Assembly (NCBI RefSeq): GCF_016905445.1
Contig: NZ_JAFEXF010000003.1
Coordinates: forward strand, 62,001 to 126,000
Length of the DNA stretch: 64,000 bases
Direction of reading: 5' to 3'
Source: Streptomyces sp. G44
GTDB lineage: Bacteria; Actinomycetota; Actinomycetes; Streptomycetales; Streptomycetaceae
In this document: piece by piece, positions 58,597-62,767 of the stretch
Position numbering within the stretch: the first letter of the stretch is position 1
Layout: each line of letters starts with the position of its first letter
Program-made: the position numbers and the translations under genes
Notes under the pieces: model-generated
What the model saw: only the letters and a program-made list of their open reading frames with translations
What the model was told of the DNA's origin: nothing
The model's database searches: none

Positions 58597-59316
58597 GTGT
58601 ACGACCCCACCGTCGCCCGGCTCACCTACCGGGCCCTGCTCGGCCGCCGCCGGGCTCTGATCCTCTTCGCCCTGCCCGTCCTGCTGATCGTCATCGCCGG
58701 TGCGGTACGCGGCTTCGGCGGCGCCGACGACCAAGTGGCCGTCGACGTCCTCGGCGGGTTCGCGCTCGCCACGATGGTGCCGATCATCGGCGTCATCGCG
58801 GGCACGGGCGCCATCGGCCCGGAGATCGACGACGGCTCGGTCGTCTATCTCCTCTCCAAGCCGGTCAAGCGGCCCACGATCATCTTCACCAAGCTGATCG
58901 TCGCCATAGCCGTGACCATGGCTTTCTCCGCTATCCCCACGTTCGTCGCCGGGATGATCCTGAACGGCAACGGTCAGCAGATCGCCGTGGCGTACACCAT
59001 CGCGGCGCTGGTCGCCTCCATCACGTACGCTGCGATCTTCCTGCTCCTCGGCACGATCACCCGGCATGCCGTCGTCTTCGGGCTGGTCTACGCCCTGGTG
59101 TGGGAGGCGGTCTTCGGCTCGCTGGTGACGGGTGCGCGGACGCTCAGCGTGCAGCAGTGGTCCCTCGCCGTGGCCCAGAAGGTCGGTGACGGTGACCTGA
59201 TCACCTCCGATGTCGGCCTGCCGACGGCGACGGCCCTGCTGGTCGTCGTCACGGTGGCCACGACCTGGTTCGCGGGACAGAAGCTGCGGTCGCTGAAGCT
59301 GGCCGGGGAGGAGTAG
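58597..59316 (+). CDS. ABC-2 exporter permease, second pair
   Basis: 239 residues from GTG 58597, with AAGGAG upstream. Six TM helices: RALILFALPVLLIVIAGAVRG, ALATMVPIIGVIAGTGAIGPEIDDGSVVYLLSKPVKRPTIIFTKL (coupling helix), then the hydrophobic rest. It completes the second exporter. No regulator lies next to this four-gene cluster. Confidence 0.9.
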   Translation: MYDPTVARLTYRALLGRRRALILFALPVLLIVIAGAVRGFGGADDQVAVDVLGGFALATMVPIIGVIAGTGAIGPEIDDGSVVYLLSKPVKRPTIIFTKLIVAIAVTMAFSAIPTFVAGMILNGNGQQIAVAYTIAALVASITYAAIFLLLGTITRHAVVFGLVYALVWEAVFGSLVTGARTLSVQQWSLAVAQKVGDGDLITSDVGLPTATALLVVVTVATTWFAGQKLRSLKLAGEE

Positions 59317-59563
59317 CGGATTATTCGGTGGCGGCGAACTCCGGGGGTGGGCAGAGTGGTTGATGCCACCGCGCCGACAGGTGGCGCTCACCGACCGGGA
59401 GAGGAGCCGACGTGTCCGTCAGTGGTCCGTCGAGTTCCCGGCAGGGCAGCCCGCGGCAGGCTTCGGAGTAGTCACTCACTTCGCAGAGCCCCGCTCACGG
59501 GGGAGCTGCCCGGGGCGGCCGCTTCGAGCGCGCAGATCACCTTGCTGCGCGGGCCGCCCACCC

Positions 59564-59650
<87 letters not shown>

Positions 59651-59737
59651 CGAGACGTTGCACTGGGCTTGGGCGGTTGTCGGTGCCCGGCACCGGGGCG
59701 GGCGTCTGTCACCGGCTTCGCCGAGTTCGTCCTCAAA

Positions 59738-60625
59738 CGCCGGACGGGCTGGGGATGCTGGTCCTGCCCCACCCGGGCTGGATATGTCTGTCCCGCCCCG
59801 CTGACGGGCTGGGGATGCCGGTCCTGCCGTGCCGCCGGGTTGGAGATGCTGGTTCTGGCCCGCTGGACGGGTTGGAGATGTCTGTCCCGCCCCCGAGGGG
59901 CTGAATTGCGGGTCCTGCCCCGCGACGGGTCGGGGATGCTTCTCCTGCCCCGCTGGACGGGTTGGAGATGTCTGTCCCGCCCCCGAGGGGCTGAATTGCG
60001 GGTCCTGCCCCGCGACGGGTCGGGGATGCTTCTCCTGCCCCGCTGGACGGGTTGGAGATGTCTGTCCCGCCCCCCGAGGGGCTGAGATGTGGGTCCTGCC
60101 CCGCGACGGGATGAAGATGCTGGTCCTGCCCCGCGGGGACGGGCTGGAGATGCTTGTCCTGCCCCGCCGCCGGAGATGTCTGTCCCACGCTTGCCGACGG
60201 GCTGGGAGGCTTGTCCCGTTCCCCCGGCGGGCTGGGAGGCTTGTCCCGTTCCCCCGGCGGGCTGGGAGGCTTGTCCCGTTCCCCCGGCGGGCTGGGAGGC
60301 TTGTCCCGTTCCCCCGGCGGGCTGGCAGGCTTGTCCCGTTCCCCCGGCGGGCTGGCAGGCTTGTCCCGTTCCCCCGGCGGGCTGGCAGGCTTATCCCGTC
60401 CCCCGGCGGGCTGAGGATGTGTGTCCTGCCCTGCCGACGGGCGGGAGATGCCTGTCTCGCCTTGCCGACGGGCTGAAATGCGTATCCCGTCCCCCGACGG
60501 GCTGGCAGGCTTGTCCCGTCCCCCCGACGGGCTGAGGAGGATGTGTGTCCTGCCCTGCCGGCGGGCTGGAGATGCTTGTCCTGACCCGCCCTGCCGACGG
60601 GCTGAGATGCCCGTCCCGTTCCGTC
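59738..60625. repeat. 30-bp tandem-repeat array (about 29 copies)
   Basis: Repeats of the type GACGGGCTGGAGATGCTTGT followed by CCTGCCCCGC fill ~890 bp. Seven adjacent copies (60201-60410) are almost identical and three 90-bp super-units (starting 59861, 59951, 60041) are identical to within a few bases. The array begins with CCTCAAACGCCGGACGGGCTGG, a sequence often dispersed in Streptomyces intergenic DNA. Because 30 is a multiple of 3, long open frames run on both strands but none is a credible gene. Confidence 0.9.
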
Positions 60626-60668
60626 GGGCGTCGCGTGCACAGTGGGGCGGGGCGGGAGTGTCGTCGCC

Positions 60669-61493
60669 TCAGCTCAGCAGGCGTTCCAGGACCACCGCGA
60701 TGCCGTCCGCCTCGTTCGACGTCGTCACCTCGTCCGCGACCGCCTTCAGTTCCGCGTGTGCGTTGGCCATGGCTACGCCGTGGGCCGCCCAGCCGAACAT
60801 CGGGATGTCGTTCGGCATGTCGCCGAAGGCGATCGTGTCCGCGGCCTTGGCGCCCAGGCGGCGGGCCGCCAGGGAGAGGCCCGTGGCCTTGGAGAGGCCG
60901 AGCGGGAGGAGTTCGACGACGCCCTCGCCGGCCATGGTCACGCCGACGAGGTCGCCCGCCACCTGGCGTGCCACGTCGGTGAGCGCGTCGTCGTCGAGGC
61001 CGGGGTGCTGGATGTACACCTTGTTCAGCGGGGCGGCCCACAGATCGGCGATCTCCGTGAAGGGGATGCTCGGCAGTGGGCCGTCCTGGACCGCGTAGCC
61101 CGGTCCGACCAGGACCTCTCCGTCGAGGCCGTCACGGCTCGCCGCCAGGGCGAGCGGACCGATCTCCGCCTCGATCTTCGCCAGGGCCAGGCCCGCGAGC
61201 TGCCGGTCCAGCGTCACGGAGGTGAGCAGCCGGTGCTCTCCCGCGTGGTAGACCTGCGCGCCCTGCCCGCACACCGCTATGCCGTTGTAGCCGAGGTCGT
61301 CGAGGATGTGCCGGGTCCATGGCACGGCCCGGCCGGTGACGACGATGTGCGCGGCGCCCGCCGCGGTGGCCGCGGTGAGCGCGTCGCGCGTCCGCGCGGA
61401 GACCGTGTCGTCGGGGCGCAGCAGTGTCCCGTCGAGGTCGGTCGCGACGAGCTTGTAGGGGAAGGACGGCGTGGCCGGAGCTGGCTGGCTCAC
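60669..61493 (-). CDS. Cof-type HAD-IIB hydrolase
   Basis: 274 residues from GTG 61493, overlapping the serS stop by 4 bp (GTGA), so it is translationally coupled to serS. Motif [17 protein letters not shown], motif II VTGRAV, motif [15 protein letters not shown], cap domain between. Similar to the other HAD gene at 47472. The longer frame to 61754 lies inside serS and is not used. The link with serS might mean a house-cleaning phosphatase for an aminoacylation by-product, but this is only inference. Confidence 0.9.
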
Positions 61494-62767
61494 TTGGTGA
61501 TGGGCTCCAGGATCTCTCGTCCTCCGAGATACGGCCGCAGCACCTCGGGCACCACCACGGAGCCGTCGGCCTGCTGGTGGTTCTCCAGGATCGCCACGAT
61601 GGTGCGCGGGACGGCGCAGAGCGTGCCGTTCAGCGTCGAGAGCGGCTGCACCTTCTTGCCGTCGCGGTACCGGATGGACAGGCGGCGGGCCTGGAAGCTG
61701 TCGCAGTTCGAGGCGGAGGTCAGCTCGCGGTACTTGCCCTGGGTGGGGATCCACGCCTCGCAGTCGAACTTGCGCGAGGCCGAGGCGCCGAGGTCACCCG
61801 TGGCCACGTCGATCACCTGGAAGGGCAGGCCGAGGCCGGTCAGCCACTGCTTCTCCCACTCCAGGAGCCGCTTGTGCTCGTTCTCGGCGTCGGCCGGGTC
61901 GACGTACGAGAACATCTCGACCTTGTCGAACTGGTGGACGCGGAAGATGCCGCGGGTGTCCTTGCCGTATGTGCCGGCCTCGCGGCGGTAGCAGGGCGAG
62001 AAGCCCGCGTACCGCAGGGGCAGCTTGTCGGCGTCGATGATCTCGTCCATGTGGTACGCCGCGAGCGGGACCTCGGAGGTGCCGACCAGGTAGTAGTCGT
62101 CCTTCTCCAGGTGGTACACGTTCTCCGCGGCCTGGCCGAGGAAGCCCGTGCCCTCCATGGCGCGCGGGCGGACCAGCGACGGCGTCAGCATCGGGATGAA
62201 CCCGGCCTCGGTCGCCTGTGCGATCGCCGCGTTGACGAGGGCCAGCTCCAGGAGGGCGCCGACGCCGGTGAGGTAGTAGAAGCGCGATCCGGAGACCTTC
62301 GCGCCGCGCTCGACGTCGATGGCGCCCAGCGCCTCGCCGAGCTCCAGGTGGTCCTTGGGCTCGAAGCCCTCGGCCGCGAAGTCGCGAGGGGTGCCGATGG
62401 TGTCCAGGACGACGAAGTCCTCCTCGCCGCCCACCGGGACGTCGGGGTGGACGATGTTGCCCAGCTGCTGGAGGAGCCGCTTGGTCTCCTCGTCCGCCTC
62501 GTCCTGGGCGGCGTCGGCCGCCTTGACCGCGGCGGAGAGCTCGCCGGCCTTCTTCAGGAGCTCCTGCTTCTCCTCCGGCGAGGCCTTCGGGATCAGCTTG
62601 CCGAGCGCCTTCTGCTCGGAGCGCAGCTCGTCGAAGCGGACGCCGGACGACCTGCGCCGCTCGTCGGCGGAGAGCAGGGCGTCGACGAGCGCGACGTCCT
62701 CTCCACGGGCGCGCTGGGAGGCGCGAACACGGTCGGGGTCCTCACGGAGCAGGCGAAGGTCAATCAC
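61490..62767 (-). CDS. serS: Seryl-tRNA synthetase
   Basis: 425 residues, class II. N-terminal coiled-coil arm that grips the tRNA-Ser variable arm ([38 protein letters not shown]), then motif 2 [19 protein letters not shown] and motif 3 [23 protein letters not shown]. Serine-binding [10 protein letters not shown] is present. It attaches serine to tRNA-Ser and tRNA-Sec. A tRNA-Ser gene lies 1.8 kb downstream on the other strand. Initiation at ATG 62767. Confidence 0.97.

Follow-up and report, generated by a model that had tools for sequence, protein, structure and literature searches.

A lineage-specific minisatellite beside a tRNA-Ser gene of Streptomyces sp. G44, probably grown from a dispersed REP-like element

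The window analysed here, a stretch of 64,000 nucleotides from the genome of Streptomyces sp. G44, carries a tRNA-Ser(GCT) gene on the plus strand (59564-59651; called by ARAGORN and matching Rfam RF00005 with 56.6 bits). Convergent to it, on the minus strand, is a gene for a HAD-family hydrolase (60669-61493; Pfam PF08282, supported by its codon score), itself preceded and overlapped by serS, the seryl-tRNA synthetase gene (61490-62767; Pfam PF00587 and PF02403). The 1,020-bp spacer between the tRNA and the 3′ end of the HAD gene holds a large tandem array bordered by that end. The annotation confirms the setting given by an earlier reading of the DNA letters (hereafter the sequence-only reading), which had placed the array between a tRNA-Ser gene and the end of a serS-linked gene. 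Across the interval 59300-61000, the tRNA alone reaches the Rfam gathering score; the other matches, chance hits of the microRNA type below threshold and one sRNA below cut-off, provide no RNA identity for the array. ARAGORN also calls a tRNA-Ser(GGA) at 60855-60933, within the HAD gene and antisense to it; this is probably a false positive, Rfam returning no match for it up to E 5.

Cyclic alignment resolves the array (59742-60621) into 29 degenerate units, 27-36 bp in length, of which 23 are distinct and 8 measure exactly 30 bp. The units are contiguous and lack unique spacers, which rules out a CRISPR locus. Self-identity amounts to 0.525 for a lag of 30 and 0.565 for one of 90, far above the maximum of 0.367 reached over lags 20-99 in 500 shuffles; the array is real and not a product of chance. 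TRF calls two tracts (59743-60167 and 60194-60581), the first with a 90-bp period. All blocks being read on the plus strand, the first (59742-60194) comprises 15 units of 27-34 bp, partly organized in 90-bp super-units, as seen by TRF, cyclic alignment and self-identity alike. Self-comparison shows two super-units, 59865-59954 and 59955-60044, to be adjacent and identical; a third, starting at 60045, has diverged by one extra base and several substitutions, so that of the “three identical” super-units claimed previously only two deserve the name. The second block (60195-60403) is a run of seven near-identical units of 29-30 bp, and the third (60404-60621) contains seven degenerate units, the last of which folds as a 7-bp hairpin (GACGGGC/GCCCGTC). 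The sequence-only reading had counted about 29 degenerate units of 30 bp and seven near-identical adjacent copies, and both counts stand; its inference of amplification at several scales holds for two, the 30-bp units and the 90-bp blocks. The exact copy number is uncertain, as the 8.37 Mb assembly consists of 583 contigs, so that units identical to one another could have been merged or wrongly joined in it.

The array begins within a copy (59709-59755, plus strand) of an element dispersed in Streptomyces, which we call the seed. Its core, CGTCCTCAAACGCCGGACGGGCTG, is present without mismatch at 59728-59751, and the whole 47-bp segment is 98% identical to a copy in a close relative, genome G093. 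When up to 2 mismatches were allowed, the core was found in 147 of 199 genomes of the genus (the present one included) and the reversed-pattern control in none, in agreement with the earlier proposal that the array starts with a sequence commonly dispersed in Streptomyces. Copies of the 23-bp core range from 0 to 328 per genome (median 6), with 24 genomes having at least 50 and the present genome 8. The conserved part spans approximately 25 bp across 112 distinct copies; the element measures about 45 bp in the window's clade and has a 23-25-bp core genus-wide.

Seventy-six element loci, at least two of which are duplicates so that the set is not made of independent cases, were classified with respect to surrounding genes called by our own script. 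Four lie inside a predicted gene, three at contig edges and the remaining 69 between two predicted genes, in 27 convergent, 39 codirectional and 3 divergent spacers. The background consisted of 59 gene pairs with gaps of at least 100 bp (10 convergent, 33 codirectional, 16 divergent), drawn partly from pattern-picked loci, three of which hold the element. Relative to this background, the element is rarer in divergent spacers (3/69 versus 16/59; Fisher p 3e-4) and commoner in convergent ones (27/69 versus 10/59; Fisher p 0.006). It thus prefers the 3′ ends of genes. A literature search, to which subscription papers were mostly external, found no description of the element, which may well be described elsewhere. 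Its letters form part of a primer in PMC10771470, and the strings “palindrom” and “cggacggg” are absent from the main text of PMC8269248, a paper on Streptomyces terminators.

The units had been credited with arms able to form hairpins in RNA. Consistent with this, the folding of the whole array region surpasses that of all 20 shuffled sequences on either strand (z -3.26 and -3.52); two stretches at the array ends give ordinary values when folded separately (z -0.62 and -0.94). An excess of this kind is what tandem imperfect inverted repeats lead one to expect, and its presence on both strands may leave room for a role in RNA. Sites resembling terminators, in which a T run comes after a GC-rich hairpin, number zero in the interval 59200-60900, against 0.6 expected from shuffles, and the array was accordingly not classed as an intrinsic terminator. 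Because of this lack of terminator-like sites, putative transcription from tRNA-Ser into the array is plausible.

One could imagine that the array serves as a module for transcription end or RNA stability, its weak hairpins either stopping read-through between tRNA-Ser and the HAD-serS genes or protecting the 3′ end of the tRNA precursor. The convergent position of the array, the clustering of seeds near gene 3′ ends at other loci and the folding of the array as a whole all fit this idea. So does the finding that 17 of 116 seeds, versus 0 of 116 shuffled ones, have a complementary arm matching at 13 or more of 15 positions within 100 bp, and that some seeds outside the array site do show a hairpin with a T run. 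Moreover, at one orthologous site the element of G093 is missing from the window's genome, which has an unrelated hairpin with a T run in its place. However, most copies are devoid of a partner arm: even with 11 of 15 positions as threshold, 86 of the 116 seeds have none, the 30 that do compare with 11 in the shuffled control, and only 5 of these 30 are followed by at least four T's. Together with the lack of terminator-like sites at the array itself and the absence of the array from the syntenic loci examined, these figures make a termination or stability module unlikely. A UUCG-tetraloop hairpin was also considered as a companion of the seed and dropped, since it precedes 1 seed in 116, a frequency equal to that of the downstream control (1/116).

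The array is confined to one genome in our comparisons. The syntenic loci were collected through the HAD protein in two sets, 29 and 80, with a few genomes occurring in both. In none of these 109 other loci, some of which are short on the side relevant to the array, did TRF or unit counts reveal the array, which is therefore not something kept identical across species. In 25 of them, where ARAGORN finds the tRNA on the same strand, the tRNA-Ser(GCT)-HAD spacer measures 30-312 bp, as compared to 1,020 bp here. Tandem repeats of other units were called by TRF in 10 of these 25 spacers (7/19 and 3/6), a set in which loci L025 and L124 apparently represent one genome; examples are 52-bp units in 3.1 copies (L048) and 7-bp units in 8.3 copies (L025/L124). 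The comparison lacks a background rate and we make no claim that this spacer is prone to repeats.

The sequence-only reading described the units as “mobile or amplifiable”. The second adjective is supported by the data; mobility of the unit is not. A DNA search of the present genome, in which 40 of 58 candidates were scored, places the array at a single site, and all matches to the unit with one mismatch fall inside it. Among 149 other genomes of the genus, 10 gave matches, all of them short, with three candidates scored per genome, a depth at which weakly related arrays may go unnoticed. Nothing in the plasmid and phage records matched the array, and an origin from such replicons was discarded on these grounds. 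Two further scans were of little use: a spaced unit pattern allowing up to 3 mismatches produced 60 matches versus 98 in its control, which makes it uninformative, and three-copy tandems of CGGGCTGG, found in 152 of 392 genomes, are not specific, the reversed control having matched many as well. A simple regular expression recognized element-derived arrays in 4 of 30 loci fetched from the latter scan. The idea that the 30-bp unit itself belongs to a mobile family, inserted here and then multiplied, could draw on the dispersal of the sequence at the array edge, with its hundreds of copies in the richest genome, and on the observation that genomes with a Y1 transposase (Pfam-level matches to Y1_Tnp) are richer in seed copies (median 11 versus 5, p 0.0095). 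Yet the dispersed sequence is the 23-25-bp seed and not the unit, which, like the array, is found at one place in its own genome, and a Y1_Tnp match is absent from 9 of the 24 genomes that have at least 50 copies, the two richest included, as it is from the present genome in a Pfam search. We regard this scenario as very improbable.

Finally, the notion that the array encodes a repetitive protein, suggested by a 347-aa open frame that spans it entirely on the minus strand, can be set aside as having next to no chance, for this frame scores -130 in a codon model trained on the window, continues into the tRNA gene, has no Pfam family and no counterpart in the syntenic loci examined, and 14 of the 29 units have a length divisible by three, the other 15 shifting the frame. 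All seven array ORFs score negatively (-130 to -26), the nine neighbouring genes predicted from 52.8 kb on scoring between +70 and +219. Pfam was scanned with two of the array frames and neither returned a family; the view of the array as non-coding, which a conserved protein would have overturned, is upheld.

Inspection of relatives suggests where the array came from. In S. silaceus, whose HAD protein is 94% identical to that of the window, the same tRNA is followed by the flank CACCGGCTTCGCCGAGT, a variant core and tandem units of 17 bp. As this core differs at 4 of 23 positions, the case for a shared ancestry of the two seeds rests mainly on flank and position. The spacers of Streptomyces sp. 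MZ04 and S. longisporoflavus (72 and 56 bp, respectively) are without seed; in Streptomyces sp. WAC 01529 and S. atriruber the tRNA is missing as well. At a second site, an orthologous element is present as three 18-bp copies in the window's genome versus three copies of about 43 bp in G093. When the sites of the relatives are compared, a seed, a small tandem and a large array can be lined up, and slippage or unequal exchange would have turned the seed into the large array.

We conclude, with a probability of roughly 0.78, that the array is a lineage-specific, non-coding minisatellite that arose from a REP-like seed in the convergent tRNA-Ser/HAD-serS spacer through slippage or unequal recombination and has most likely no selected function. 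A copy of the REP-like element would have sat in this spacer already in an ancestor common to S. silaceus and the window's genome, as suggested by the related seed that the former has at the equivalent place. Tandem duplication in the window's lineage would then have affected the GGACGGGCTGG half of the element together with the bases following it. Units of about 30 bp would have been duplicated singly to begin with; a 90-bp block of three units (twice and very recently) and the run of seven 30-bp units would be later products. Comparing species and not a series of strains, we infer that the duplications came about by slippage during replication or unequal recombination, possibly aided by the GC-rich imperfect hairpins. 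Most likely the array performs no selected function of its own; it looks like a young, species-specific minisatellite, not a new kind of genetic element.

Elements of the REP, BIME and REPIN type are short and extragenic, occur in many copies per genome and in both orientations, often as inverted pairs, and are found at gene 3′ ends. The seed resembles them in being short, extragenic, multi-copy (up to 328 copies per genome, with 69 of 76 loci intergenic), present in both orientations and located at gene 3′ ends; it differs in that its core is largely a single arm, near-perfect partners being limited to the 17 copies in 116 mentioned above, and in that its association with a Y1 (RAYT-type) transposase is inconsistent. 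Given the patchiness of this link, we call the seed REP-like and leave strict membership in the REP class aside. The MIRU-type repeats of mycobacteria are dispersed intergenic elements that form tandem arrays at some loci. The parallel with the present case, a dispersed intergenic element turned tandem at one locus, is one of description; here there is one large array, and variation is deduced between species. Bacterial minisatellites are defined, in PMC6749651, as satellites with repeats of 10-200 nt, and the same paper credits S. coelicolor with 38 of them (4.20 per Mb), so that minisatellites as such are ordinary in Streptomyces. With 29 head-to-tail units of 27-36 bp, the array exceeds the four copies of 10-200 nt that define the class, and it is like its members in being tandem, non-coding and species-specific with a unit of about 30 nt. 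It differs from them in that the starting sequence can be named here, thanks to the genus-wide element at the array edge and to the relative's site.

The tRNA-Ser gene next to the array has peculiarities of its own. A Ser-rich mini-ORF, MSVSGPSSSRQGSPRQASE (59412-59471), preceded by the ribosome-site-like stretch GGAGAGGAG, lies 92 bp before the tRNA. Of 34 loci with tRNA-Ser(GCT), 33 were given a short ORF by our script, and 31 of these ORFs are Ser-rich; in L041 and L045 the script chose another frame or start. AGT and AGC, the codons that the GCT tRNA reads, make up 103 of 194 Ser codons in the mini-ORFs versus 27 of 130 in seven genes of the window. Two leader hairpins are predicted, one across the end of the mini-ORF and the other directly before the tRNA (59513-59559); when 26 of these 34 loci are aligned, 14 of the 65 predicted pairs show two-sided changes. 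The arrangement has the look of a tRNA gene controlled by leader-peptide attenuation; a literature search returned nothing on such a unit. Streptomyces sp. WAC 01529 and S. atriruber (L082 and L084, compared with 59317-59665 of the window) have no tRNA-Ser at this place, and in S. atriruber the leader is kept with loss of the start and stop codons of the mini-ORF, as if mini-ORF and tRNA worked together. Other departures concern the tRNA itself. In 7 of 110 syntenic loci scanned (L033, L041, L042, L044, L108, L114 and L137), the anticodon loop of the tRNA-Ser-like sequence is longer by about 15-18 nt and contains a conserved stretch resembling GCTGTGTTCGATCA, which the genus scan finds in 10 of 199 genomes (control 0); this natural and conserved oddity affects a tRNA-Ser that is apparently dispensable. 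The anticodon at the syntenic locus L146 reads GTT. At E 0.001, matches to this tRNA-Ser in the present genome are limited to the locus itself, with none in G093. Upstream of 59399, an AT-rich stretch precedes the leader's conserved GTGGCG and CACAGT-like boxes. It recalls WblC/WhiB7 promoters, a lead only, as the GAAAWY motif is not seen there; PMC7157823, the source of this motif, places six tRNA genes under WblC.

The array itself would be a fast-changing, strain-specific marker, and the series formed by seed, small tandem and large array shows how bacterial minisatellites can originate. The seed family and the neighbouring mini-ORF/tRNA-Ser unit deserve more attention than the array. Tentatively, and as a possibility for which we would not claim even odds, the seed might represent an unnamed repeat family found throughout Streptomyces, with GTCCTCAAACGCCGGACGGGCTGG as its core and between 0 and 328 copies in each genome. 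Such a family would settle at the 3′ ends of genes, dispense with a Y1 transposase and give rise time and again to local minisatellites. If so, the family would have a new, transposase-independent way of spreading, and the present array would be a large example of the minisatellites it generates. The question that the family raises is how the seed spreads in genomes devoid of a Y1 transposase.
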